Shown in pieces: positions 3,049 through 18,840 of a stretch of DNA of 33,947 nt (positions are counted from its first letter, which is position 1; the number at the start of each line of letters is the position of its first letter). The stretch is from a virus, in IMG/VR virus record IMGVR_UViG_3300032296_003616, positions 1 through 33,947 of that record; one strand, given 5' to 3'. The position numbers and the translations under genes were made by a program. A model generated the notes under the pieces. That model saw only the letters and a program-made list of their open reading frames with translations. It was not told the DNA's origin and ran no database searches.

Positions 3049-3273
3049 ATGAAACAGCAAATTAATGAAATTAAGAAAATGCAGCGAATAGCTGGTGTTA
3101 TTAATGAGACTCAAAACTATAATTTAATAGCAAAAGCAAAACAACTATTTCCTAGTTTACAGATTGATGCTAATTCTATATACCTTAATGACAAAATGCT
3201 ATTTTCATCTAATAATGATAAAGTAATAGAAGCATTTATTTTTGGTATGTTAGTTGGAAAAACAGCAAAATAA
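3049..3273 (+). CDS. Second MKQQINEIK-leader small protein, putative internal head protein
   Basis: A 74-residue protein. Its first 20 residues match 14 of 20 positions in the leader of the preceding gene, ending VINE before Thr. The two leaders differ by many synonymous codon changes, so protein-level constraint is implied. The predicted mature part (54 residues) begins YNLIAKAKQLFPSLQID and ends with a hydrophobic segment, AFIFGMLVGKTAK, which may be membrane-active or a buried helix. It is AT-rich like its neighbour. It lies 31 nt after the previous stop, behind a weak TTTTTATA stretch. The function is unknown; the leader is the informative feature. Confidence 0.75.
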   Translation: MKQQINEIKKMQRIAGVINETQNYNLIAKAKQLFPSLQIDANSIYLNDKMLFSSNNDKVIEAFIFGMLVGKTAK

Positions 3274-3351: not shown

Positions 3352-3558
3352 ATGACTTGGAGATCACAATTCTTAAGCAACGTAGCTACAACGTGTCTGA
3401 TGCTGGCGATGTTTTTCAACCCGCTTGGCTTCGATGCGCTATTCAAACTAGTGATGGATTGGACAGGTTCATTTTGGGCTACGGATATCATTTTTTATGG
3501 CGCTTCGCTTTTGTTTCTTGGCTTGTATTTATTATTCAGAAAACTATCTAAAAAATGA
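3352..3558 (+). CDS. Small two-helix membrane protein
   Basis: A 68-residue hydrophobic protein with two probable membrane segments, about residues 8-28 (ATTCLMLAMFFNPLGFDAL) and 46-63 (IIFYGASLLFLGLYLLF), followed by a positive RKLSKK end. The start at ATG 3352 gives a typical membrane-protein composition, while the overlapping frame from ATG 3318 does not. Its stop overlaps the next ATG as ATGA. The 78 nt upstream (3274-3351) contain no convincing gene, apart from a possible short N-terminal stretch in the other frame (MEADSKIQKKLNDLE). That leaves open an ancestral frameshift. A role in lysis or membrane takeover cannot be decided. Confidence 0.7.
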   Translation: MTWRSQFLSNVATTCLMLAMFFNPLGFDALFKLVMDWTGSFWATDIIFYGASLLFLGLYLLFRKLSKK

Positions 3559-3812
3559 TAAGCTTATTAGACATATTATTTGAGGCCGAGAGAACAAAAT
3601 CAGGGATAAAAGTGAAGAAGGCCTATCTAACAAAGGATAAAGCAGCAATGAAGCGTGAAATAGAAAGGACGTCTAAGTTGAGCGACAAAGATGCATCAGC
3701 TTATGGCAAATGGGAAGCTGATTATGCAGATAAAGATAAGAAGAAAAAATACAAAACAAAAAAATCGAAAGCTACCACAGCTTACGAAAAAAGATTCGGT
3801 AAAAGCAAATGA
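3555..3812 (+). CDS. Basic putative internal head protein with 10-residue leader
   Basis: An 85-residue, very Lys-rich protein. The first ten residues, MISLLDILFE, are followed by Ala. This is the same length and cleavage junction (I/L-x-E before Ala) as the T4 internal-protein leader MKTYQEFIAE. The predicted mature protein of 75 residues carries GKWEADYADKDKKKKYKTKK and an ending AYEKRFGKSK. Its net positive charge suits binding to packaged DNA. Both ends overlap neighbours by ATGA, so it is translationally coupled to the membrane protein before it and the DUF5824-type gene after it. Packaging is inferred, not seen. Confidence 0.8.
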   Translation: MISLLDILFEAERTKSGIKVKKAYLTKDKAAMKREIERTSKLSDKDASAYGKWEADYADKDKKKKYKTKKSKATTAYEKRFGKSK

Positions 3813-4081
3813 TAAGCCTACTACAAATACTAAACGAAGCTTTTGCTGCTAACGTAGAAAAAGCACTGGCAAATAAAGCCAAAGCAACCGGTGTATCTAA
3901 AACTATAATACGCCAAGTGTACCAAAAAGGTTTGGCGGCTTGGAAAAGGGGACACAGACCTGGCGCTAGTCAACACCAGTGGGCTTTAGGTCGCGTAAAT
4001 TCGTTTTTAACTGGAAAAGGCGGGGCAAGGAAAGCGGACAAAGGACTATGGAAAAAAGCAAGAAAAAGTAAAAAGAAATAA
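3809..4081 (+). CDS. DUF5824-type protein with capsid-targeting-like leader
   Basis: A 90-residue protein. MISLLQILNE followed by Ala repeats the leader of the previous gene (8 of 10 residues identical), again like the T4 internal-protein leader. The rest contains GVSKTIIRQVYQKGLAAWKRGHRPG followed by QHQWALGRVNSFLTG, a family widespread in T4-like and marine phages that I know as DUF5824. The C-terminus is basic (KARKSKKK). In other phages the domain usually occurs without a demonstrated function. Here the leader suggests that it travels inside the capsid. It starts within the stop of the preceding gene (ATGA). Confidence 0.85.
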   Translation: MISLLQILNEAFAANVEKALANKAKATGVSKTIIRQVYQKGLAAWKRGHRPGASQHQWALGRVNSFLTGKGGARKADKGLWKKARKSKKK

Positions 4082-4082
4082 G

Positions 4083-4601
4083 ATGAAAAACATATCACTA
4101 CAAGCTTTAGTAAGAGCCCTAAGAGAAGAGCAAAACGTAGACCTACCGGGCAACCAAGAAAAAATAGACGTAGCAGAACCAAAAGGCAAGATAACCGCGG
4201 CTGACTTCAAGAAGCTCAGATCAATGAAGAAGGAAGGCCAATACAAACACAGTATCGATCAACTTCTAAAGATCGTACAGACCAAAAAAGCTGGCCCAGA
4301 ATACAAAAAAGCTTTGATGGATCTGATCAATCTGGCTAAAAAGAAAACAGGCAAAGAGATACATTCTATAGCCGATTTGAAACAGGCTTTAGATTACGAA
4401 GAGCCCAAAATCAGAGAGGGAGCCGATCACGAAGTAGCTATGGCAATGAGCAGTCTAAAGGAGATCGTTAGCAACGCTTCTCAGTTGATGGACAAGCTTG
4501 GAGGAATGGAAAGGGATATTCCAGGTTGGATTCAAGACCACATAACAAACGCAGAGAACTACATAGAACAAGCAAACCAAGGCTTTCACGAGTTGCAATA
4601 A
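4083..4601 (+). CDS. Putative head-associated protein with C-terminal conserved phage helical domain
   Basis: A 172-residue protein whose start lies one base after the previous stop. Residues 1-16, MKNISLQALVRALREE, form an amphipathic leader with a possible cleavage after LRE. Residues 40-105 are a basic helical region. Residues 115-172 (DHEVAMAMSSLKEIV, then PGWIQDHITNAENYIEQA) are a helical hairpin that I recognise from the C-termini of many environmental phage virion proteins, where the signature W-(V/I)-Q-x-(K/H)-I-T-x-A-x-x-Y-I is conserved. The domain probably mediates assembly, but its exact role is unknown. The candidate promoter at 4605 separates this gene from the next. Confidence 0.8.
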   Translation: MKNISLQALVRALREEQNVDLPGNQEKIDVAEPKGKITAADFKKLRSMKKEGQYKHSIDQLLKIVQTKKAGPEYKKALMDLINLAKKKTGKEIHSIADLKQALDYEEPKIREGADHEVAMAMSSLKEIVSNASQLMDKLGGMERDIPGWIQDHITNAENYIEQANQGFHELQ

Positions 4602-4618: not shown

Positions 4619-6712
4619 ATGAACTTGGACGCGCTAATACTAAGACAGATGCTTCTCGAGCAAGACGAAGAGCAACCTGAACAGGAAGAAAAAAAGGAGC
4701 TAACTCCCTTTGAACAAGACCCATTGGGCTTCATACTAAAGAAGTACGTAAGCCTAAACGAGCTCTTGACCGAACTCATGACAGAGTCTTTCAAAGAGTA
4801 CCTCAACGCCATATTCATAGTGGCGCCAAAGCCAACCACATTCAAAGTATTGCTACACAACGGTCAGTACTTCTTTTTGACTTACCTAAATAAAGCGTAC
4901 CAAGCAACAATATCGGGTAAGAACTACTACTTAATGACGCTTGGAGAAAAGCAACTTTGCATGCAGGCAATCGCAAGACTTTTACGCTACGGATCTCCCC
5001 TAAAAACAAAGGGACCCGAAGGCGCAGAACAAGACACAGGACCTGGTGAAGGCGAAGCAGGAGAAGAATCAGCTCCAGAAACACCACCAGCAGAAGGCGG
5101 AGAGGAGATACAGGAAGCTAAGATATTGGCTGAAATGTTAAAAAGAGAGTTGTTTAATGAAGCCACAAAAGGTATTATTAGACCGTCAACGGGTAATGAA
5201 ACTTCTTTAAAAGAGGGATTAGTTTGTCTATTTTACGACGTTTTTAAAATACCATCTTTGGTGACTGAAATAGAAGATCTTCATGCATTGGTTACCAATA
5301 AACAAACAGCAAGTGAAATAAAAGAAGAGGACGTAACAAAGGTAACTAATAAAATATCTCAAGTATATAATAAGAATAAACAATATTACGGATCTGGGAA
5401 ATCAATGCCAGAGAATCTAGATCTTTATGTTAAGTATGTGTTTTTAACCGGACAAGAGGTAGATACACTAACTAACGCAATATCGGCTGCAGCGTCTATA
5501 CACAAAGAAGTGTCAGCTGAAGGAAGAATAATAAGAAACCAAGACTTTGATAAAATTAGAACAAAAGCTGTTTCGTTAGTAAAAGAACAATATAACATAT
5601 CGTTACAGGCGGATAATTGGTGTCCTGGAGACGCGTATTTGGTAATAAATCAAGCTGGAATATCAAACTGTTTAAAGGCTAATACAGTAAATATTGGAAA
5701 AGATAGCATAAATCACCAATTTGAAAAAGACGGAGATATAATAGCTATATCGCTAAAAGAAGAAAAAGCTCAAGCGGGAAAAGCAACTACATTTGCCAAT
5801 ACAGTATTTAGTAACTCTTTTGACGCAAACGTAGATCCTAATGATAAATACGGTACATCTGACAATAAAGATTTGGCAAAGATCTCAGCAAAAATAGCTA
5901 GATTCGAAGACTATTTCTATGGACCTAAAAGAGGCGGCAAACGTTCTCAAAGCTACATAAACTCTATCACAAAAGATAAAAAGTTACACGGTTCGGTAAA
6001 CTCAATACTTCAAGCAGTTGGAAAACCAAAAATAAAAACAGACGGAATAAAACCAGAATATAGGTCAGAAGAAGCTTTTTATAAGGCTAACAAAACTATT
6101 TTTGATGATCTAGAATCTGCTATAAAAACTATAAAATCCAAACTAACAGGTTCAGACTCTTCTGCAAAAGTTAAAAAATCTTTTACAACCAGTAGAGATA
6201 AGTTTATAAGTGATATAAAAAAATACAAAATAGAAGTAAGCGCAGAAGATAGCAATAAGTTTTCTAAAGACGTAGAAAAAGAGAACGACGATTTTATAAA
6301 AGTACTATCAATGAAAACGGCCACGTACGAATTGGCAAGTTTGATAATCGATAGATGGACAGATAAGAACGCAAAAATATCCCCCGCATATAAAAAAATA
6401 CAAGAAATATCAAACCCATTTGTTGCGTTAACAGCGTTTGCTATAGCTGAAGCTGGACTAAGTCCAAGTTTTTACAAAGTAATAGGAAGCTCTAAATCTC
6501 TAATGGGTCACGCTGATTACTTCGACGCTAAAGCAGAGATAGACATTGACTCAAGTAGCACAAAAATGACACTTGTAGATTCTCCAAAACAAGCGGGTTT
6601 CTTACTGTCTTACGTAACAAAACTAGGAAAAAAGAACTATTCCACAAAGCTAGTGTTCAGATTCTCAGGCTCTGAAATAAGAATAGAGGTACAAGAATTG
6701 AAAGCACAATAA
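4619..6712 (+). CDS. Large composite protein: leader, helical domain, acidic linker and nuclease-like C-terminal part
   Basis: A 697-residue protein. Residues 1-14, MNLDALILRQMLLE, end in a possible gp21 site. Residues 25-125 form a compact alpha/beta domain. Residues 130-163 are a Glu/Gly/Pro linker. Residues 164-183 (EIQEAKILAEML, then RELFNEATKG) look like a second, internal leader with IQE-A and FNE-A junctions. From about nt 5130 the DNA becomes clearly more AT-rich. Residues 334-390 hold NWCPGDAYLV, NHQFEKDGDIIAISLKEEKA and QAGKA, an order (D338, then a hydrophobic strand followed by S-L-K380 and carboxylates) compatible with a PD-(D/E)XK nuclease core. The remainder is Lys-rich. I cannot name the family with certainty. 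A packaged or injected nuclease is a hypothesis. Confidence 0.8.
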   Translation: MNLDALILRQMLLEQDEEQPEQEEKKELTPFEQDPLGFILKKYVSLNELLTELMTESFKEYLNAIFIVAPKPTTFKVLLHNGQYFFLTYLNKAYQATISGKNYYLMTLGEKQLCMQAIARLLRYGSPLKTKGPEGAEQDTGPGEGEAGEESAPETPPAEGGEEIQEAKILAEMLKRELFNEATKGIIRPSTGNETSLKEGLVCLFYDVFKIPSLVTEIEDLHALVTNKQTASEIKEEDVTKVTNKISQVYNKNKQYYGSGKSMPENLDLYVKYVFLTGQEVDTLTNAISAAASIHKEVSAEGRIIRNQDFDKIRTKAVSLVKEQYNISLQADNWCPGDAYLVINQAGISNCLKANTVNIGKDSINHQFEKDGDIIAISLKEEKAQAGKATTFANTVFSNSFDANVDPNDKYGTSDNKDLAKISAKIARFEDYFYGPKRGGKRSQSYINSITKDKKLHGSVNSILQAVGKPKIKTDGIKPEYRSEEAFYKANKTIFDDLESAIKTIKSKLTGSDSSAKVKKSFTTSRDKFISDIKKYKIEVSAEDSNKFSKDVEKENDDFIKVLSMKTATYELASLIIDRWTDKNAKISPAYKKIQEISNPFVALTAFAIAEAGLSPSFYKVIGSSKSLMGHADYFDAKAEIDIDSSSTKMTLVDSPKQAGFLLSYVTKLGKKNYSTKLVFRFSGSEIRIEVQELKAQ

Positions 6713-6743
6713 AGATAAAGTAACAATAGAATCAAACTTTTGT

Positions 6744-6753
6744 TACATTTATA
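6744..6753 (+). promoter_or_regulatory. TACATTTATA motif, variant candidate late promoter
   Basis: A one-base variant (ACATTTATA) of the window motif, nine bases before the ATG at 6763 in the 50-nt gap after the large composite gene. It is the only listed member lacking the ATATTTAT core. Confidence 0.4.
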
Positions 6754-6762
6754 AAAACAGTT

Positions 6763-7236
6763 ATGAACATATTCTATTTACACGAAGATCCATTAAAAGC
6801 TGCCGAAGACCTTTGCGACCAACACGTACTCAAAATGGGCATAGAATCTGCTCAAATGCTGTCTACTGCGCACTGGATGAACGGATCTACTGCACCGTAC
6901 AAGAAAGCACACGTAAATCACCCTTCCACAATATGGACTCGCTCATCTAAAAGCCATTATGATTGGTTGATTGAGCACGCTAAAGGCATATTCAAAGAGT
7001 ATACAAAACGGTACGCAAAGCAACACAAGACCGAAAGCGTGTTGAATTGGTTAGTAGAAAACAGACCGCAGTTACCAAATATAGGCTTTGTTCCTCCTCC
7101 CCAGTGCATGCCTGAAGATTACAAAAACAAAGACACAGTTAAGGCCTACAGGGACTTCTATTTGTACGATAAGATATTGACAAAGGGCTTAAACTACAAA
7201 AGATCGAGTTCGGTACCAGAATGGTTAAGTAGCTAG
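6763..7236 (+). CDS. Conserved T4-like phage protein of the MNIFYL-DQHVLKM type
   Basis: A 157-residue protein. MNIFYLHEDPLKAAEDLCDQHVLKMGIESAQML-STAHWM is a strongly conserved opening found in many cyanophage and marine phage proteins of unknown function. Further conserved-looking parts are AHVNHPSTIWTR and the region around PPPQCMPEDYK, and it ends FYLYDKILTKGLNYKR. A faint similarity of the DQH segment to the T4 DenV type of pyrimidine-dimer glycosylase is possible, but I do not rely on it. Conserved His, Asp, Glu, Arg and Trp residues suggest an enzyme. The gene stands alone behind its own promoter-like motif and just ahead of the spanin-like pair. Confidence 0.8.
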   Translation: MNIFYLHEDPLKAAEDLCDQHVLKMGIESAQMLSTAHWMNGSTAPYKKAHVNHPSTIWTRSSKSHYDWLIEHAKGIFKEYTKRYAKQHKTESVLNWLVENRPQLPNIGFVPPPQCMPEDYKNKDTVKAYRDFYLYDKILTKGLNYKRSSSVPEWLSS

Positions 7237-7240
7237 TATG

Positions 7241-7250
7241 CATATTTATA
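7241..7250 (+). promoter_or_regulatory. CATATTTATA motif, candidate late promoter
   Basis: A perfect CATATTTATA eight bases upstream of the ATG at 7259. It also decides the start choice. An ATG at 7238 would read through the motif as MHIYKK, an unlikely protein start because the motif recurs upstream of unrelated genes. Confidence 0.6.
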
Positions 7251-7258
7251 AGAAAAAC

Positions 7259-7636
7259 ATGGATAACGCGTTTAATAAACTATCTGAGATATTTTGCAAC
7301 AGAACCACAAAAAAGGTACTGTTTCTTTTGTCTATGGCTATTAGCATATTGTGTTTAATAACCATATTTTCTTTGTTCCCCAACTCAAGTAGTGATCTAA
7401 AAAAACAGGTAGATGATCTACAAAAGCGTTCCGAAGAATTGTTAAAAGCTCAGGCAAAATACGATAGTACCATAAATAGCCAAGAGGCGTACGTAATTGA
7501 GTTGGAGGGAAAAATAGCGAACATTAAAGAAAGAACAACAGTAATCAAAGAGTACTACACAACGATAAGAGAGCAAGTCAGTGCGTACGATTACAGACAG
7601 ATAGATTCCTTCTTCAGACAAAAATATAACTATTAA
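7259..7636 (+). CDS. Membrane-anchored coiled-coil protein, possible inner-membrane spanin
   Basis: A 125-residue protein when started at ATG 7259 rather than the upstream ATG 7238, which lies across the promoter motif. Residues 20-40 (VLFLLSMAISILCLITIFSL) form one membrane segment with a short cytoplasmic N-terminus, and residues 45-105 are a long heptad-rich coiled coil. This topology fits an Rz-type inner-membrane spanin, and the next gene encodes an exported protein only 2 nt downstream, the usual pairing. A structural tail or head-membrane protein is an alternative, since no endolysin gene is seen next to it. Confidence 0.7.
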   Translation: MDNAFNKLSEIFCNRTTKKVLFLLSMAISILCLITIFSLFPNSSSDLKKQVDDLQKRSEELLKAQAKYDSTINSQEAYVIELEGKIANIKERTTVIKEYYTTIREQVSAYDYRQIDSFFRQKYNY

Positions 7637-7638
7637 TC

Positions 7639-8031
7639 ATGAAAAAATTAGTCATCCTGCCTTTATTGATATTGACTTTTAGTTGTTTTTCACAAGACAC
7701 CGTTAAGTTGCCAACTCACGTTGCAAAACAGATCATAAAAGATTTGGTTGATTATGAAAGTGTTAAAGCGCAATTGAAATTAATTAAAGAGCAGATGGAT
7801 GTCATGGACCAAGTGAGTCAAGCAAAAGACACTATCATACTAAATTATAAATACAAGGTAGAGAACTGTGAGAGTAGAATCGAGATAGAAAAGAGGATAG
7901 TTGATCTTTACAAACAGGAAGCTATAAGACTTAAAAAAGAATACAAAAAGCTAAAATTAAAAACAACGCTAACTAAAATAGGATCGGGAGCGATTATAGG
8001 CACTCTTACATATTTGTTGATAGTAAAGTAA
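7639..8031 (+). CDS. Exported coiled-coil protein, possible outer-membrane spanin partner
   Basis: A 130-residue protein. Residues 1-20 (MKKLVILPLLILTFSCFSQD) form a signal peptide. The LTFSC could act as a relaxed lipobox, or cleavage could follow FSQ, which is typical of flavobacterial exported proteins. Residues 25-105 are a charged coiled coil, and residues 110-130 (IGSGAIIGTLTYLLIVK) are a hydrophobic C-terminal segment. It follows the membrane coiled-coil gene by 2 nt and precedes the terminase by 1 nt. The pair suggests a two-component spanin. However, o-spanins normally lack a C-terminal hydrophobic segment, so this is tentative. Confidence 0.65.
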   Translation: MKKLVILPLLILTFSCFSQDTVKLPTHVAKQIIKDLVDYESVKAQLKLIKEQMDVMDQVSQAKDTIILNYKYKVENCESRIEIEKRIVDLYKQEAIRLKKEYKKLKLKTTLTKIGSGAIIGTLTYLLIVK

Positions 8032-8032
8032 C

Positions 8033-9637
8033 ATGTCAGATAACAAACAGTACATAAGAGATAGGATAAAAGAGGAGTTCATAAAGTGTGCTCAAGATCC
8101 TGTGTATTTCATGAGGAAGTACTACATGATCCAACACCCCACTAGAGGAAGGCAACTGTTCGATCTTTACGACTTCCAAGAAAAGGTATTAAAGCTTTTC
8201 CAAACGAACGAATACGCGATAATAAACAAATCAAGGCAGCTTGGTATATCAACGCTAGTATCAGCTTACTCTCTTTGGTTGATGCTGTTCAACAAGGATA
8301 AGAACGTTCTCGTTGTAGCAACTACGCAAATGACCGCTAAGAACATGGTTACTAAGGTTCGCTTTGCTTACCAAAACTTACCCGCTTGGTTGAAGATAGG
8401 ACATTCAGAAGACAACAGATTGAGCCTTAGATTGGTTAACGGTTCACAGATAAAGGCCGTATCAGCAGCGGGAGACGCAACACGTTCAGAAGCTGTATCT
8501 TTATTGGTCATAGACGAAGCCGCTTTCATTGACAGGATAGAGGACATATTCACAGCGGCGCAACAGACGTTAGCAACCGGAGGTCGATGCATAGCGCTGT
8601 CTACTCCAAACGGCGTTGGTAACTGGTTTCACAAGACTTACACAAAAGCGCAAAAGAAAGAGAATCGCTTTTTACCCATATCTCTACCGTGGACAGTACA
8701 CCCCGAAAGAAACGAAGAGTGGAGGGAACAACAGACTAAAGAACTTGGAGTAAGAAACGCTGCGCAAGAGTGCGATTGCGATTTTGCTACATCAGGCGCT
8801 GGTGTTATAGAACCAGAGATATTGACATGGTACGAAATGAACATGATTAGTGAACCTTTGGAAAGGCGTGGCATGGACAAAGCGCTGTGGATATGGGAGT
8901 ATCCCGATCCAATGAGGTACTACGCAATAATAGCTGACGTTGCTCGTGGAGACAGTTCAGACTACTCTGCGTTTCACGTTATAGACACAGAGACGTTATC
9001 ACAAGTGGCAGAATACAAATCACAGATAGACACAAGGGAATACGCTAACGTTCTATTGGCAATCGCTAACGAATACAATCAAGCGTTGTTAGTTGTTGAA
9101 AACGCTAACATAGGCTGGGACGTTGTACAAACTGTTGTAGACAGCGGATATCCGAACGTTCACTACAGTCACAGGATCGACGCAGATAACTCTTTTGAGA
9201 AATACATAGATAGATTCGATAGAGGATCAGGGTTAGTCCCAGGATTCACCATGAGTCAAAAGACACGTCCTTTGGCTATAGAGAAGATGAGAGATTTCAT
9301 TGAAAACAAGATAGTGACCATAAGATCCATACGACTCCTGGAAGAGCTTCGAGTATTTGTTTGGAAGAACGGCAAACAGCAAGCCATGCAGGGATACAAC
9401 GACGATCTAGTAATGTCGTTTGCGATGGGAATGTACCTAAGAGAGACATCGTTAAGGTTCAAAAAAACAATGGATAGTTTAACTTCAGTGTCGATAAACA
9501 ACATAAACAAGACAAATAACAGTCATTATTTACCGTCTGCTAACCACAACTACAACGGATACAACAATCCATGGAGCATGCCAATATCAACGCCAGACGG
9601 ACAAACGCATAACCACGACCTTTCTTGGTTACTATAA
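8033..9637 (+). CDS. 17: Large terminase subunit, gp17-like
   Basis: A 534-residue packaging motor (T4 gp17 has 610). It hydrolyses ATP to drive DNA into the prohead through the portal and cuts the concatemer. The ATPase domain shows NKSRQLGISTL (66-75), LLVIDEAAFI (157-166, Walker B D161/E162) and the coupling motif ALSTPNG (188-194). The Walker A lacks the usual Lys before Ser/Thr; the K66/R68 at its start may substitute, as in other terminases with this variant. The RNase-H-like nuclease is marked by IIADVARGDSSDYSAF (D302), LLVVENANIGW (E356) and GYNDDLVMSF (D457/D458). It is followed at once by the portal gene. No small terminase gp16 is recognisable in the window. Confidence 0.96.
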   Translation: MSDNKQYIRDRIKEEFIKCAQDPVYFMRKYYMIQHPTRGRQLFDLYDFQEKVLKLFQTNEYAIINKSRQLGISTLVSAYSLWLMLFNKDKNVLVVATTQMTAKNMVTKVRFAYQNLPAWLKIGHSEDNRLSLRLVNGSQIKAVSAAGDATRSEAVSLLVIDEAAFIDRIEDIFTAAQQTLATGGRCIALSTPNGVGNWFHKTYTKAQKKENRFLPISLPWTVHPERNEEWREQQTKELGVRNAAQECDCDFATSGAGVIEPEILTWYEMNMISEPLERRGMDKALWIWEYPDPMRYYAIIADVARGDSSDYSAFHVIDTETLSQVAEYKSQIDTREYANVLLAIANEYNQALLVVENANIGWDVVQTVVDSGYPNVHYSHRIDADNSFEKYIDRFDRGSGLVPGFTMSQKTRPLAIEKMRDFIENKIVTIRSIRLLEELRVFVWKNGKQQAMQGYNDDLVMSFAMGMYLRETSLRFKKTMDSLTSVSINNINKTNNSHYLPSANHNYNGYNNPWSMPISTPDGQTHNHDLSWLL

Positions 9638-9648
9638 AATAACAAAAA

Positions 9649-11577
9649 ATGGAAGAACAAAAGAAACCGCAAGAGAATTTGTTTAGTACGCTTAGACGCT
9701 TATTTTCTACAGACGTGATAATAAGAAACGAAGGCGGAGGAATGCTAAAAGTAGTAGACACCGATAGGATACAAAACTCCGGTGTTGTACAGACTAACAG
9801 CTTAGTGGATAGGTTCCACAAGGTTTATACGACGTCTACTGCTTACGGTGTAAACATGAACTTGGCGCAGAACTACCAATCAGCCCGTGTACAGATATAC
9901 GCTGACTACGATGCGATGGACACAGACGCTATCGTTGCATCGGCTTTGGACATCATAGCTGATGAATGTACGCTTAAGAACGAACAGGGCGAAGTGCTAC
10001 AGATACGCTCTTCTGACGAAAACATACAGAAGCTTCTTTATAACCTTTACTATTCCATCTTAAACATCGAGTTTAGTCTTTGGGGATGGATAAGAAACAT
10101 GTGTAAGTACGGTGACTTCTATCTAAAGCTTGAAATGGCAGAGAAATACGGAGTTTACAACGTAATTCCATTCTCAGCCTACAACATAGTTAGACAAGAG
10201 GGATACAACCCAGAGAATCCTTCCGAGGTAAGATTCAAATACGATCCAAACGCAGCAATAGCGTCCACAACAGGTTATTCATCAGCATTCAATAACCAAG
10301 ACGTTGGGATATGGTTCGATAACTACGAAATGGCTCACTTCAGATTGACCGGAGACGTTAACTATCTTCCTTACGGTAGATCTTACCTAGAGCCAGCAAG
10401 AAAGCTATTCAAACAGTACACGCTCATAGAAGACGCGATGTTGATTCACAGGATAGTAAGAGCTCCAGAGCGCAGAGTGTTTTACGTTAACGTTGGTGCT
10501 ATACCTCCAGCAGAAGTGGAAAACTACATTCAAAGGATGATGAACAAGATGAAGAAGACTCCTTTGATGGACCCGCAAACCGGTAATTACAACCTAAAAT
10601 ACAACGTACAGAACATGCTTGAGGACTTCGTTATTCCTGTTAGGGGTAGCGATCAGACCACGAGGATAGATACTGCAAAAGGTCTGGACTACAACGGTAT
10701 CGAAGACGTTGCATACTTCAGAGAAAAACTGTTCGCAGCATTGAAGATACCAAAAGCGTTCATGGGATACGAAAAGGACTTAACTGGTAAGGCAACGCTA
10801 GCCGCAGAAGATATACGCTTTGCTAGAACAGTTGAGCGCATACAACGCATCATAGTGTCTGAGTTAACGAAGATAGGATTGATTCACCTATACGCTCACG
10901 GATACACAAACGAATCAGCCGCTAACTTCACCATATCACTAACAAATCCATCGATAATATATGATCAAGAAAGGGTGGCACTATTCAAAGAGAAGATAGA
11001 CCTAGCTAAACAGGCTATGGAGGGACAGTTGTTACCGAGGGACTACATATACGATAAAGTATTTCACTTCTCTGAGGATCAATACCTAGAGCTCGAAGAC
11101 ATGATACTAGAAGACCAAAAGAGAGCGTTTAGGTACAAACAGATAGCAGAAGAGGGCAACGATCCAGCAGAAACAGGACAAGCTTTCGGTACTCCACACC
11201 AATTGGCAAGCCTGTACGGTGGAAAGGGAGACATGTCCCTAGACGTACCAACAGGATACGATGAGAATAAACCAGAGAAAGAGTACGAATCACCAGGTAG
11301 ACCGCAGAAGTACAAATCCAAACGCGGAACAGACGCAAGTCCTTTTGGAAGAGATGGAATGGGAGTGTACGATCTGAAGTCAAACGCAGAAACTGGAGAA
11401 GACAAGCTTAAGCCAGAGTACAGAGGAGGACCGTTGGCGTTAGAAAGCACTATGGCAGAACTGTTAAAAAACAAACAAATGCTTGATAAGATAGCGAGTA
11501 AGTCTCAAAGAAAGGTGAAACTTTTTGAATCCACCGATCTTTTAGACGAAAGTAACATATTACAAGATCCCGAGTAA
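9649..11577 (+). CDS. 20: Portal vertex protein, gp20-like
   Basis: A 642-residue portal (T4 gp20 has 524). It forms the dodecameric ring at one capsid vertex, nucleates head assembly and serves as the terminase dock. The portal core is recognisable at about residues 320-375, with LEDFVIPVRGSDQTTRIDT, then GIEDVAYFREKLFAALKIPKAFMG, closely following T4-type portals. Residues 500-600 are a polar Gly/Pro-rich extension beyond the usual length, and the end (VKLFE-STDLLDESN) contains (L)-x-E sites that the prohead protease might trim. It starts 11 nt after the terminase stop behind an A-rich leader (AAAATAACAAAA), so the two are probably one transcript. Confidence 0.95.
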   Translation: MEEQKKPQENLFSTLRRLFSTDVIIRNEGGGMLKVVDTDRIQNSGVVQTNSLVDRFHKVYTTSTAYGVNMNLAQNYQSARVQIYADYDAMDTDAIVASALDIIADECTLKNEQGEVLQIRSSDENIQKLLYNLYYSILNIEFSLWGWIRNMCKYGDFYLKLEMAEKYGVYNVIPFSAYNIVRQEGYNPENPSEVRFKYDPNAAIASTTGYSSAFNNQDVGIWFDNYEMAHFRLTGDVNYLPYGRSYLEPARKLFKQYTLIEDAMLIHRIVRAPERRVFYVNVGAIPPAEVENYIQRMMNKMKKTPLMDPQTGNYNLKYNVQNMLEDFVIPVRGSDQTTRIDTAKGLDYNGIEDVAYFREKLFAALKIPKAFMGYEKDLTGKATLAAEDIRFARTVERIQRIIVSELTKIGLIHLYAHGYTNESAANFTISLTNPSIIYDQERVALFKEKIDLAKQAMEGQLLPRDYIYDKVFHFSEDQYLELEDMILEDQKRAFRYKQIAEEGNDPAETGQAFGTPHQLASLYGGKGDMSLDVPTGYDENKPEKEYESPGRPQKYKSKRGTDASPFGRDGMGVYDLKSNAETGEDKLKPEYRGGPLALESTMAELLKNKQMLDKIASKSQRKVKLFESTDLLDESNILQDPE

Positions 11578-13890: not shown

Positions 13891-15201
13891 ATGACAAACA
13901 TAACCAAACTTTATCAACAGCTACAAGAGGGTAAGACAACCCGCGAATATTTCGTTAGAGAAGCCCGCAGACAGTTTCCACAGTTCATTAGTCCTGTGAC
14001 TTCTTTTGACGACGCTGTAAATATATTGAAGAGCAAGAGACTGGTGTCCGAAAACTTAACTAAAGAAGTTAGCGGAGCTAGATTTGATACGTTGGGAGAA
14101 ACTCAAATGACAGATCAAGCGATAATTAAACGTGCAAAACAATTGGGAATAGAGGACAGCATTGTATTAGATGGAGAGGGCGGTGTAGAGAACGCTGAAG
14201 AAATGATAGCTTTAATAAACAACTCAGAGCCTATAAACGAAGCCCACAAGCTTGACGCAGAACAGATACTAGACAGAATGTCTCCATACGCTGTTAAGAA
14301 GGGAATAGAGGTAGAGCTAAAGAAAGAAAAGACTTACGACAATACAACTATCGATAAGGTAAAAGAGAGAGTGGCCAGGAAGCTCAAAAAGAACCCAAAC
14401 GCTTACGACGATCAGATCATAGCCAACGTAAAGAAGGTTGAAAAGCAGGACAAAGAGCTCGAAGCTACAGAGCTAAAAAAAGAGTTGGTCGACAAGAAGA
14501 ACGCGATGAGAAAGCCTAAGGGGTTTAAAGCTGATAAGGCTAACACAAAAGCTTCTAAGAGAGAAAACAGAAAGGGCAAACCAAAGGGCGTTAAAGTTAT
14601 GCCTGATAAGGGCGTAACAGGGACTGAGAAGGTGATAAAAGAAGACGTCATAGAGAATATCAAAAGCTGGCTTCAAGAGAACATAACGAGGGAATACCAC
14701 CCAGGTATGGAAGTACAAACACCAGACGGACACGGTATAGTAAAAGAGGTCAAAGGCGGTACGTTAACAGTTGAATTGGACGATAGTAATTTGAAAGACT
14801 ACCAATTCAATGTGATAAATAAGTTGATGGACAAAGAGCCCGAATCACAACCAGAAATTCAACCGTCTTCTGGTGATGAAATGACTAAAGCCGATAGAGA
14901 CGCTGCATGGGCAAAAATAGGAACGCCTATGGGTAGCGTTAAAGGCACAGATACTGGAATTCCCAAGTCGCTTTACTCAGCTATGACACCAGAGGAAAAA
15001 ATAGCCGCTATAATAGAAAAGTTGAACAAGATGGAAGAGGGCGAAAAGAAAGAGAAGATCAAAGAGATGATAAAGTCTAAGTTAAAAGAAGCGAAAGCTT
15101 TAGTAGTACCTAAAACAGCAACAGATCAACAAGTAACAAAAATAGTTTCTACTGATCCGACTATAAAACCTGGAACACCTTTAGAGATAATAAGAAAATA
15201 A
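13891..15201 (+). CDS. Probable prohead core protein with KOW-like domain
   Basis: A 436-residue protein directly upstream of the prohead protease, with the two sharing one base (TAATG). The N-terminus (KLYQQLQEGKTTREYFVREARRQFPQF, then PVTSFDDAVNILKSKRL) is a module I recognise from proteins of this position in many marine phages. It contains LQE-G and VRE-A junctions fitting gp21 specificity. Residues 120-245 are Lys/Glu-rich helices. Residues 270-320 (GMEVQTPDGHGIVKEVKGGTLTVELDD) form a KOW/SH3-like barrel. Further sites (PINE-A, LKE-A) lie along the chain. A scaffold or core function with proteolytic removal is inferred. Confidence 0.8.
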   Translation: MTNITKLYQQLQEGKTTREYFVREARRQFPQFISPVTSFDDAVNILKSKRLVSENLTKEVSGARFDTLGETQMTDQAIIKRAKQLGIEDSIVLDGEGGVENAEEMIALINNSEPINEAHKLDAEQILDRMSPYAVKKGIEVELKKEKTYDNTTIDKVKERVARKLKKNPNAYDDQIIANVKKVEKQDKELEATELKKELVDKKNAMRKPKGFKADKANTKASKRENRKGKPKGVKVMPDKGVTGTEKVIKEDVIENIKSWLQENITREYHPGMEVQTPDGHGIVKEVKGGTLTVELDDSNLKDYQFNVINKLMDKEPESQPEIQPSSGDEMTKADRDAAWAKIGTPMGSVKGTDTGIPKSLYSAMTPEEKIAAIIEKLNKMEEGEKKEKIKEMIKSKLKEAKALVVPKTATDQQVTKIVSTDPTIKPGTPLEIIRK

Positions 15202-15839
15202 TGTCCAAACAACTACTGATAGACCACTCGGTATTCCAACCGACGAACATACTAAGGGAATCAATCGATGCTAAGACCCGAAACATGGTCGTGATTGGTC
15301 TTGTGCAAGCTTGCGACAAACCAAATGCAAACAGACGCATTTACCCATACGATGTACTGTATCCTCAGGTTGAGAAATACGTAACTGGTCCAATAGCTGA
15401 GAATAGAGCGTTGGGAGAATTGGATCACCCCGAGTCTTCCATCATAAACTTAAAGAACGTATCACACAACATATTGGAACTGTGGTGGAAGGGAAAAGAT
15501 CTCTACGGAAAGGTTGAGATACTACCTACACCTTCAGGCAACATACTAAAGGAGCTCTTCCTAAATAACATCACAGTAGGCATATCTTCAAGAGCTTTAG
15601 GTTCCACTACTCAGATAGGCGAAGGCTTGGTTAGAGTGGAAGAGGACTTAGATATAATCTGTTGGGACTTCGTATCCCAACCAAGTACCTACGGAGCTTA
15701 CATGCGACCACAACAGTCGGTAGGCTTAGGCATAAACGAATCTGTTAACTTCCAACAACAAGAGACAAAGTACAGTAAGGCAAATCAGCTCATGAGAGAC
15801 CTTATTTGTGAAATGTCAGGAGTTTGTTGCGTTAACTAA
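15201..15839 (+). CDS. 21: Prohead core protease, gp21-like
   Basis: A 212-residue serine protease, the same size as T4 gp21. It matures the prohead by cutting core, shell and internal proteins after (L/I)-x-E. GELDHP (72-77) carries the catalytic His76, and TVGISSRALGS (125-135) carries the Ser, as in T4-type prohead proteases. GLVQACDKPNANRRIYPYDVL is the usual N-terminal strand and loop. The sequence NILRE-S at residues 17-21 is a plausible self-processing site. It is encoded immediately before scaffold and capsid, the classical 21-22-23 order. The Cys-rich C-terminus (MSGVCCVN) is unusual. Confidence 0.95.
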   Translation: MSKQLLIDHSVFQPTNILRESIDAKTRNMVVIGLVQACDKPNANRRIYPYDVLYPQVEKYVTGPIAENRALGELDHPESSIINLKNVSHNILELWWKGKDLYGKVEILPTPSGNILKELFLNNITVGISSRALGSTTQIGEGLVRVEEDLDIICWDFVSQPSTYGAYMRPQQSVGLGINESVNFQQQETKYSKANQLMRDLICEMSGVCCVN

Positions 15840-15958: not shown

Positions 15959-17170
15959 ATGGACAACAAAATTTACAAAGAAGCGATTCTTGACGCCAAA
16001 GCATTACGCGCCGGTGCAATCGCAAACGCAAAATCAATCATGCAAGAAGCACTTGAACCCGCTATTCAAGAAATGATGCGCCTTAAACTATCCGAAGAAC
16101 TCGAAGAAGAAATCGAAGAAGGATACGAAGAGGAAGGAATTGAAGAATACGGTGACGAGCATGCTGTAGCCACAAAAGACGCTTTAGAGAAAAAAGAAGA
16201 AGGCGAAATGTATGATGAAGAGGTTGAAGAAGTTACTGACGCTACTTTAGAAGAAATCCTTGCTGAGCTCGACGCTTTGGAAGAAGATCAACTAAACGAA
16301 GCCGAAGAAGACGAAGCTGAAGACGAAGAAGAGTCTGAAGAAGCTGAGGAAGACGAAGAAGGCGTAACAGATGACACTAAAGTAGTTCAACTAACTTTGG
16401 GAGATCTTAAAGCCGCTTTGATGCCTCAAGCCGCTGAAATGGGAGACGAAGCCGGTGAAGAATCAGAAGAAGCTCCTCTATCTTTGGACGAAATTTTAGC
16501 TGAAATGGAAGCTGAAAAGTACGAAGAAGCAATCGGGGAAGAAAGCAAAGAACCCGTTAAAGAGTTTATGCAATCTCAAGGCGCTTCTCAAGCTTTTGGA
16601 GAAATGCTACTTGGTTTGGCCAGAAAAGTTGGTATTCCTGTTGAAGGCATAGACGCAACAACTATCGGTACTGCCGTAGGAAGCGTAGCTGGAGCAGCTG
16701 GTTTAATAACTAGCGCGATAGTAGCTGGAAACTGGGATAAAATAAAAGCCATCATCTCCTCAGCACTTGGTAAAATTAAAGGTAAATCTGCAGTAGCGGA
16801 AGAAAAAGATCACGGTATTGAAGAAGAACTGAAAACAGCAAAAGAAACAATCGCCGAATTGAGAGAGAGCATCAACGAAATCAACCTCTTGAACGCTAAG
16901 CTTCTTTACATGAACAAGATCTTCAAAGCCAAATCTTTGACTGAGTCTGAAAAAGTAAAAGTAGTTAAAGCTTTCGACAGAAACGCAAGCATCAAAGAAG
17001 TTAAAAACACTTACGAGACGCTTAAAGAATCTATCCAAGCTAAAAAATCACAGGTTATTAAAGAATCTGTAGGTTTCGCATCAAAACCGATCGGAGTAGC
17101 CCCTAAAACTAACATCGTGGAAGCTGACGCTTTCGTTAACAGGTGGCAAAAGATCGCAGGTATCAAATAA
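15959..17170 (+). CDS. 22: Prohead scaffold/core protein, gp22-like, with a hydrophobic insert
   Basis: A 403-residue protein (T4 gp22 has 269). It would form the internal core on which the shell assembles and then be degraded by gp21. Residues 45-200 are extremely acidic. Residues 285-360 hold the gp22 signature, with TIAELRESINEINLLNAKLL, then YMNKIFKAKSLTESEKVKVVKAFD. The C-terminus, NIVE-ADAFVNRWQKIAGIK, contains a cleavage-like junction. Others are IMQE-A (30), LNE-A (114) and ILAE-M (182). Residues 225-275 form an unusual Gly/Ala-rich hydrophobic segment followed by the cationic WDKIKAIISSALGKIKGK, which is absent from T4 gp22. It is followed by gp23 after 35 nt of A-rich DNA. Confidence 0.9.
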   Translation: MDNKIYKEAILDAKALRAGAIANAKSIMQEALEPAIQEMMRLKLSEELEEEIEEGYEEEGIEEYGDEHAVATKDALEKKEEGEMYDEEVEEVTDATLEEILAELDALEEDQLNEAEEDEAEDEEESEEAEEDEEGVTDDTKVVQLTLGDLKAALMPQAAEMGDEAGEESEEAPLSLDEILAEMEAEKYEEAIGEESKEPVKEFMQSQGASQAFGEMLLGLARKVGIPVEGIDATTIGTAVGSVAGAAGLITSAIVAGNWDKIKAIISSALGKIKGKSAVAEEKDHGIEEELKTAKETIAELRESINEINLLNAKLLYMNKIFKAKSLTESEKVKVVKAFDRNASIKEVKNTYETLKESIQAKKSQVIKESVGFASKPIGVAPKTNIVEADAFVNRWQKIAGIK

Positions 17171-17205
17171 AAAATCAAAAACAAAACAAAAAACCAATAA
17201 TCACA

Positions 17206-18840
17206 ATGGCAAATTTAGTAAGCTCGCTTTTAAGCGAATCAGCCCAAACTGCCTTCGAAAGCCAAACAGGTGTTGCTACCCGTCTTTCGAAAAAATGGGA
17301 AAAATCCGGACTTTTAGAAGGTCTTCAGGATTACGAAAAGAACAACATGGCAGTGTTGTTAGAAAACCAAGCAAAACAGCTCGTAGTTGAAACCACACAA
17401 ACTAACCAAGGCGGTAGCAACTGGAGCGCAGGAAACGGCGAACAGTGGGCTGGCGTAGCTCTTCCATTGGTTCGTAAGATCATGGGTCAGATCGCTGCGA
17501 AAGAGTTCGTTAGCGTACAGCCTATGAACCTTCCTGCTGGTCTAGTATTCTACCTTGATTTCCAATACGGAGACACTAAGACTCCTTTTGGATCTGGTAA
17601 CTCAATCTACGGTACTCCTTCTGCTAACTTCGGTAACTTGGCTGCTGGTGGTCTTTACGGCGCTGGTAAGTTCGGTTACTCTTTGAATCAGTTCAGTGCT
17701 TCTTCTACTGCTACTATCACTTCAGCTTCTTACGCTGACATCGACTTTAACGCAGACCTTTCTGCTTCTTTCGTTGCTGGTCAAGTTAAGAAGATCGCTG
17801 TAGCATCTAGTGATTTAACAACTGCTGATTTGGACGCTGTTCGTTCTTTCATACCAGTATCTGGATCTACTTTCACAACCGCTGCTACTCGCGTGTTGCA
17901 AAACTTCACAAAAGTTAACGGCGCAAACGTTGAGTTCTTCGTAACTGCTTCTACTGCAGAAGTTGCTGGTACAGCATTTACAGTGTTCTACAGCAAGCAA
18001 ACCGACTTCAACTCTCGCGGTGACTTCGAAGACAGAACTGGCTTACCTTCAGTTCCTAACGCTGCTTCTAACACATCTATCGTTATCCCTGAGATCAACG
18101 TACAGATGAAGAATCAGACCGTTTCTGCTAAAACTCGTAAGTTGAAAGCGCAATGGACTCCTGAATTTGCACAAGACCTTAACGCTTACCACTCTCTTGA
18201 CGCTGAAGCTGAATTGACTGGCATCCTTTCTGAGCACATCTCTCTTGAGATCGACCTCGAAGTTATGGATATGCTAATCAACAACGCTCCTACTGTTGAG
18301 TACTGGTCAGCTAAGGTTGGTAACCAAATCAACGCTACTAACAGCGATTTCACTTCTAACACTGCTGGCGTGTTCTACACTCAAATGACTTGGTTCCAAA
18401 CACTTGGTATCAAACTTCAGAAGGTGTCTAACATCATCCACCAACGTACTTTACGCGGTGGCGCTAACTTCATGGTAGTGTCTCCTACAGTTGCTACAAT
18501 CCTTGAGTCAATCCCTGGATTCGCTGCTGATACTGACGGAGCTGCTGACACAATGAAGTACGCTTTCGGTGTACAGAAGATCGGTGCTTTGAACAGCCGT
18601 TACAAAGTGTACAAGAACCCTTACATGACTGAGAACGTGATCCTTATGGGTTATCGCGGTAACCAGTTCCTTGAGTGTGGCGCTGTATACTCTCCGTACG
18701 TTCCATTGATCATGACTCCTCTCGTTTACGATCCTAATACTTTTACACCTCGCAAAGGTATCATGACTCGTTACGCGATGACAATGATCAGACCGGAATT
18801 TTATGGTCTAGTTGTAGTAGCAGATACAAATGTGATCTAA
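17206..18840 (+). CDS. 23: Major capsid protein, gp23-like
   Basis: A 544-residue shell subunit (T4 gp23 has 521). I start it at ATG 17206 after an A-rich leader; the in-frame ATG 17143 overlaps gp22 and would add 21 unlikely basic residues. KEFVSVQPMNLPAGLVFYLDFQYG and KTRKLKAQWTPEFAQDLNAYHSLDAEAELTGIL (split here for length: KTRKLKAQW, EFAQDLNAYH, DAEAELTGIL) are classic gp23 blocks. By alignment with T4 (cut at E65), gp21 cleavage is predicted after LVVE at residue 62. Residues about 150-270 form a Ser/Thr/Ala-rich insertion domain. Codon use differs from neighbours (ATC, GCT, ACT and CTT preferred over ATA), as expected for the most abundant protein. A strong terminator follows. Confidence 0.96.
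   Translation: MANLVSSLLSESAQTAFESQTGVATRLSKKWEKSGLLEGLQDYEKNNMAVLLENQAKQLVVETTQTNQGGSNWSAGNGEQWAGVALPLVRKIMGQIAAKEFVSVQPMNLPAGLVFYLDFQYGDTKTPFGSGNSIYGTPSANFGNLAAGGLYGAGKFGYSLNQFSASSTATITSASYADIDFNADLSASFVAGQVKKIAVASSDLTTADLDAVRSFIPVSGSTFTTAATRVLQNFTKVNGANVEFFVTASTAEVAGTAFTVFYSKQTDFNSRGDFEDRTGLPSVPNAASNTSIVIPEINVQMKNQTVSAKTRKLKAQWTPEFAQDLNAYHSLDAEAELTGILSEHISLEIDLEVMDMLINNAPTVEYWSAKVGNQINATNSDFTSNTAGVFYTQMTWFQTLGIKLQKVSNIIHQRTLRGGANFMVVSPTVATILESIPGFAADTDGAADTMKYAFGVQKIGALNSRYKVYKNPYMTENVILMGYRGNQFLECGAVYSPYVPLIMTPLVYDPNTFTPRKGIMTRYAMTMIRPEFYGLVVVADTNVI

Follow-up and report, generated by a model that had tools for sequence, protein, structure and literature searches.

The internal proteins IPI, IPII, IPIII and Alt of phage T4 carry a capsid targeting sequence, and the T4 prohead protease gp21 cuts after L/I-X-E, according to passages of PMC9026906. 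The same passages report that T4 can package EcoRI or staphylococcal nuclease when these are fused to IPIII or to its targeting sequence. IPI inhibits a host restriction enzyme. In temperate phages, the polymorphic MuF toxins join a conserved N-terminal part from the head module to a variable C-terminal toxin, more than half of them with nuclease domains, and MuF proteins with known toxin domains are reported to be absent from virulent phages (passages of PMC5576092). The polyvalent proteins of phages and plasmids represent a broader idea, that of multidomain effectors for which packaging and injection are predicted (passages of PMC5512222). Lastly, T4 gp4 is a virion-linked protein of the restriction-endonuclease fold whose DNase activity is needed for packaging (passages of PMC7824862). 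Within the open-access literature, which bounded the search, we recognised no paper describing a fused nuclease cassette of the kind reported below.

The window analysed here, meaning the whole stretch of 33,947 bases from an IMG/VR virus record, is probably a genome fragment. Its landmarks lie on the plus strand: the terminase large subunit (8033-9637; PF03237, E 2.1e-12), the T4-like portal protein gp20 (9649-11577; PF07230, E 4.6e-72), a gp21-like prohead protease of the Peptidase_S77 family, presumed to be the processing enzyme (15201-15839; PF03420, E 4.3e-24), and the major capsid protein gp23 (17143-18840; PF07068, E 1.4e-78). Flavobacterium phage immuto is the nearest cultured relative among the matches, so the host probably belongs to the Bacteroidota; passages of PMC7077304 make no mention of this phage. 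On the same strand, the terminase is preceded by an open composite gene (4619-6712, 697 residues; full-length relatives in loci L001 and L002). The first-pass annotation had described an N-terminal domain, a Glu/Gly/Pro linker and an internal leader-like stretch in its product, and all of these elements are present. The N-terminal leader (residues 1-14, MNLDALILRQMLLE; 4619-4660) ends in an LxE site (LLE), and is followed by a head-region domain (residues 39-125; 4733-4993) that is resident and found alone or fused, and by an acidic linker rich in E, G and P (residues about 127-163; 4997-5107), similar acidic stretches occurring in fused and stand-alone forms. The internal leader (residues 164-182; 5108-5164) comprises the predicted prohead-protease sites IQE-A (164-167), ILAE (169-172, followed by M) and FNE-A (179-182). 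The remaining 515 residues (183-697; 5165-6709) make up a nuclease-like cargo, backed by alignments of relatives and an AlphaFold2 model and hereafter called class A. We read this gene, with a probability of about 0.6, as the cassette holder of a T4-like phage of the Bacteroidota type, in which leader and domain would target the protein to the head, and gp21 would free a PD-(D/E)XK-like nuclease cargo that would be injected and is exchanged.

As far as the passages cited above describe the known systems, each is resembled in part. Like the T4 internal proteins, the window protein has an N-terminal leader ending in L/I-X-E, a gp21-type protease is encoded in the genome, and the mature parts are divergent; unlike them, it repeats the leader internally after a resident domain, and its cargo is large and nuclease-like. 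It shares with the MuF toxins the modular design of a conserved head-module N-part and a variable C-terminal part, but Pfam finds no MuF domain in the window protein or in ten relatives, and the cargo exchange involves no partner gene. Like the polyvalent proteins, it is a multidomain protein predicted to be packaged and injected as an effector, but with one nuclease-like enzyme per protein and a predicted release by prohead-protease-type sites; besides, the head-region domain has no significant match in Pfam or PHROG, and these searches assign it no biochemical activity, several activities being the mark of a polyvalent protein. With T4 gp4 the likeness would be that of a virion-linked DNase of the restriction-endonuclease fold, both the virion link and the fold being putative in our case; gp4 is a single protein needed for packaging, whereas the slot considered here is variable and often empty.

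The surroundings of the composite gene offer several observations in their own right. The products of the small genes just upstream (3049-3273, 3555-3812, 3809-4081 and 4083-4601) bear similar leaders, and that of 3809-4081 matches DUF5824 (E 1.4e-15) as well as the end of a phage cytidyltransferase family. Directly downstream, a pyrimidine dimer DNA glycosylase gene (6763-7236; Pyr_excise, denV-like, E 1.2e-7) is kept 3' of the cassette in near relatives. Between it and the terminase, a small membrane protein adjoins a signal-peptide-like protein (7238-7636 and 7639-8031), possibly a spanin pair. Intein-like insertions interrupt or enlarge terminase or portal frames in L032, L061 and L063, and in record G004 the gp21 match is split in two pieces within one 576-residue frame, another intein-like insertion.

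A profile built from three sequences traced the head-region domain to 121 relatives in IMG/VR; the 80 best of these make up a set of viral loci that is thus selected by the head domain only. With a fusion defined by a cargo of 200 or more residues, 41 of these 80 loci are fused, 35 have the domain alone, three are truncated where their contig ends and one is broken. Proteins with the domain alone mostly measure about 150-160 residues and consist of leader, domain and acidic tail. In immuto, the domain (41% identity) covers residues 704-790 of gp079, near the C-terminus of this 841-residue protein, and is again followed by an acidic tail; the adjacent gene, gp078, encodes a separate nuclease-like protein. 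Ahead of the domain, the gp079 protein (L007, 6892-9417) has a leader at its N-terminus and other leader-like stretches, and may represent a polyprotein cut at several sites. The two halves of the window protein do not always occur together and are separable, since the domain stands alone in those 35 loci, the cargo family occurs free elsewhere as a gene of its own, and the cargo can be replaced at the internal leader. These three points are in keeping with the earlier proposal that a cargo gene was fused into a resident head gene; base composition, its other argument, did not hold as evidence of a recent fusion.

The replacement is best seen in locus L009, which forms with the window a near-pair differing, over the stretch compared, mainly in the cassette. 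Their DNA is 89.2% identical over positions 4669-5144 and 90.0% identical over 6701-10137, while the cargo DNA from 5144 to 6701 gives no match. The left break therefore falls inside the internal leader, and the right end three codons before the stop; in a second relative, L013, the match with the window ends at 5106 and restarts at 6701. At the protein level, identity amounts to 99% across 109 residues of the N-part, while the best cargo stretch reaches 33% over 132, and the L009 cargo is accordingly regarded as a distant allele of the same class. The swap leaves the neighbouring and downstream genes in place, so that no obvious immunity partner moves with the cargo. At the level of the sequences compared, exchange of the cargo as a cassette between phages is demonstrated. 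In another near relative (L004/L010), a 232-base deletion with a frameshift, corresponding to window positions 5512-5743, removes the D338 region discussed below, which may be a real loss or an assembly fault.

The first-pass annotation had also pointed to a shift to AT-rich DNA near position 5130. It exists in the window, where GC falls from 0.47 (4801-5100) to 0.32 (5101-5400), and where the N-part and the cargo differ in GC (0.43 vs 0.34) and GC3 (0.53 vs 0.24), but it is not general: cargo GC lies below that of the N-domain in 25 of the 32 fused genes compared, by a mean of 2.3 points. In the 80%-identical homologue L002/L011, the same composite is near-uniform (GC 0.29 vs 0.27 between its two parts), which rules out the step as proof of a recent fusion.

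The fused cargoes were sorted, by BLAST to representatives and motif reading, into eleven classes, labels of our own that are not all independent. The 41 fused loci, 37 of them distinct once duplicate contigs are discounted, hold seven cargoes of class A, three of B, two of C, four of D, two of E, two of F, 11 of G, four of H, one of I, one of J and three of K, as well as one without class (L084). By profile comparison, A joins J (E 1.9e-11 over 292 columns, with the E, D and SLK residues superposed), F joins K (2.1e-11), the first part of J joins H (5e-9), and G joins H weakly (2.6e-4, probability 42%). In this comparison, which covered classes A, B, D, F, G, H, J and K, B and D gave no significant link to the others, and the head domain, included as a control, joined no cargo class. 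A BLAST search adds a match of class E to one G protein (118 residues, E 2e-6). Three class A queries returned no such cargo from cultured phages (two were without match, one matched only at E 1-6), the species-genome scan returned no relative, and BLAST aligned no part of immuto gp078 with the window cargo.

The same classes recur as free genes. Where the domain stands alone, a nuclease-like gene often comes next. Of 18 loci whose downstream genes were read, the next gene belongs to class F in four (L033, L034, L052 and L059), class J occupies the same slot in four others (L078, L081, L087 and L084, with a small ORF in between in L078 and L084), another ORF precedes the terminase in one (L053), and the terminase follows directly in nine; L084 also bears a short tail lacking the motif. 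Free class A genes are common (80 of 125 stretches kept). Among the loci collected, 27 proteins of class A share a 45-residue N-terminal tag, EW..R..KGYPD, with the class F protein of immuto, and a query with one class A tag matches immuto gp078 (E 6e-7). A scan with this tag, of which 80 of 444 stretches were kept, found behind it class F (43 plus 3 proteins), class G (7), class A (1), one weak match to class D (E 6e-4 over 57 residues), and clusters of 18 and 7 without class match. These two clusters (L218 and L204) are nuclease-like, with D...SLK and D...EVK motifs, and have no BLAST link to other classes. The order domain, tagged nuclease, terminase is found in four of six long records, the other two being without a domain match. 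Overlapping enzyme classes thus share one slot behind two different N-terminal arrangements.

This position, just 5' of terminase and portal, brings in the main rival for the function of the cargo, a packaging or head-completion nuclease that would trim or repair DNA during packaging, as T4 gp4 does, and would for that reason sit before the terminase. Such a role has the gp4 precedent (passages of PMC7824862), and a stand-in for gp4 is possible, since the TnsA-like family (PF08722) was matched neither by the window protein nor, at E<=1, in the long records of four out of four relatives, with the reservation that the control genomes also remained below the cut-off (0/14). However, one would not expect an essential packaging enzyme to be lacking in nine of the 18 loci read, where the nuclease is thus dispensable, or to give way to very different proteins between otherwise near-identical phages, and we consider this role unlikely. 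The coexistence of empty, adjacent and fused states, together with the precise ends of the swap, also suits a selfish homing-type nuclease that would use the linker as a landing site and spread by cutting cargo-less alleles. That one slot hosts different classes, that the same classes stand behind two different N-terminal arrangements, and that all 32 fusions examined keep the reading frame and protease-type sites at the junction (see below) argue against such an element, which seems to us very improbable.

As to whether the cargo is a nuclease, PD-(D/E)XK enzymes place an acidic residue before one strand and their motif at the end of the next, and SxK variants occur in this superfamily. The first-pass annotation had considered D338 and a strand ending in S-L-K-E-E compatible with such a core. 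In the class A alignment, D338 (in WCPGD; 5630-5632), a candidate metal ligand at the strand start, and S378, L379 and K380 (5750-5758), a candidate [D/E/S]xK, are invariant in 48/48 sequences, and E199 (in KEGL; 5213-5215), the candidate helix glutamate of the active site, in 47/47. Most class A loci were gathered by either of two patterns covering D338 or S378-K380, so the conservation of these residues is partly built in; E199 lies in neither pattern. An AlphaFold2 model computed on 48 cargo sequences (pLDDT 86.4, pTM 0.81) has, by DSSP, strands at cargo positions 160-163 and 195-201, which are residues 339-342 and 374-380; in this prediction D338 directly precedes one strand and S378-L379-K380 ends the next. 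The residues and predicted strands therefore fit the earlier proposal, but class A departs from the strict motif, with S378 in place of D/E in 48/48 sequences, and the check then suggested, a structure prediction followed by a fold search, lent it no support: Foldseek and VIA-align, with four PDB comparisons of predicted models, found no restriction-endonuclease match for the whole cargo or for its core. The top rows of VIA-align paired the C-terminal part with an affimer/cystatin-like structure (Z 4.3) and the end of the core with a helical one (Z 4.6), and the structural relatives in a viral library, A0A8S5S6M1 of Myoviridae sp. ctqEN1 (E 8.1e-7) and H6SUG8 of Campylobacter virus IBB35 (E 2.2e-5), are both uncharacterised. 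Sequence search of the PDB gave no nuclease match to the cargo, and Pfam no nuclease above cut-off for the cargo proteins. A CdiA_C toxin match of the class F protein of L034 was set aside (E 0.048, below the cut-off, only 20 residues covered).

Because no fold search found a restriction-enzyme fold, the assignment as a nuclease rests on motifs, and sister classes chosen without any motif provide the stronger evidence. Regular expressions applied to single sequences were uninformative, shuffled sequences matching in 29-49% (13 rows). The class F set behind the tag (43 sequences, reduced to 30 by removing those over 90% identical) has only G..E, GD and E.K invariant, which is the strict PD-(D/E)XK form. 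In 11 sequences of classes G and H, likewise chosen without a motif, five of the eight invariant columns belong to E, K-x-D and S-x-K. From the motif, the predicted strands and the sister classes, we infer that the window cargo is a PD-(D/E)XK-like nuclease with E199, D338 and S378-x-K380 as candidate catalytic residues; we say "like" and refrain from counting it in the superfamily, since fold and sequence searches named no such enzyme. The acidic linker and leaders, reminiscent of core proteins, and the deletion and frameshift in the L004/L010 cargo would also suit a decaying or non-catalytic head protein, a structural or core filler keeping a nuclease-like fold without activity. We find this quite unlikely, as several classes show some of their highest conservation at E, D and [S/E]xK while the rest drifts, and as the contig with the deletion is a fragment, in which the gap may stem from faulty assembly.

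Regarding packaging and cleavage, the junction is richer in [LI]xE sites than the remaining cargo in 32/32 fused proteins, with means of 2.53 vs 0.75 per 85 residues; this set comprises the window and 31 of the 41 fused loci, after removal of 10 that duplicate kept loci or are closely related to them. The first residue of the FNE site does not follow the T4 rule, although L002 has LTE there: the second leader of this homologue, while diverged, retains its shape and terminates in LTE-A. In the head cluster of record G001, whose limits were set after the gene list was seen, [LI]xE occurs at residues 5-22 in 15/28 genes vs 48/209 elsewhere (p 0.0012). A prohead protease match is present in 5/5 related records. 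With such a protease in the window and conserved junction sites, the release of the C-terminal part by gp21, as the first-pass annotation had envisaged, is plausible. In cyanophage S-SCSM1, the class J relative SSCSM1_90 bears the product name "virion protein" and may be one of the 45 virion proteins that mass spectrometry is reported to have identified in this phage (passages of PMC9602691). The adjoining SSCSM1_91 (L182, 6068-7297), an NMN adenylyltransferase reported in the virion in those passages, has the leader MKSFLQFLKEA.

Taken as a mechanism, the cassette holder would work as follows. Judging from the conserved sites, the N-terminal leader and the resident domain would bring the protein into the prohead, where gp21 would cut out the linker together with the internal leader, which is bounded by prohead-protease sites, and thereby free the C-terminal cargo inside the head. 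The cargo would then enter the cell together with the phage genome, by injection, and cleave DNA or RNA belonging to the host or to a competing element. The phage might protect itself by DNA modification, by the substrate specificity of the enzyme or by its inactivity in the head, which is a guess; these routes seem more likely than a cognate immunity protein, because no neighbouring gene is exchanged with the cargo.

In short, we read the sequences as a polymorphic, probably packaged nuclease cassette of T4-like phages of the Bacteroidota type, in which a resident head-region protein is joined to an exchangeable enzyme, probably one that cuts DNA or RNA, by a stretch resembling a packaging tag with protease sites. 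A wider claim, which we advance tentatively and at somewhat less than even odds, is that lytic T4-like phages of the Bacteroidota type possess a polymorphic virion-nuclease system. Its many classes, several of them unalignable, would occupy one slot by the terminase, attached either by a protease-cut internal leader behind the head domain or by the separate 45-residue tag (EW..KGYPD), and would be delivered without cognate immunity genes, destroying nucleic acid of the host or of rival phages in the first minutes of infection. Packaged exchangeable effectors are already known from the MuF toxins of temperate phages and the small internal proteins of T4; if true, a nuclease cassette that lytic T4-like phages carry as a fusion and release by a protease would join both ideas. 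Named residues, sites and sister phages are now available for testing, and the leaders suggest natural capsid-delivery tags for enzymes. With an exchangeable enzyme behind a leader that resembles a packaging tag, related phages may therefore carry different enzymes into the cells they infect, and the exchange of the cassette suggests an arms race.
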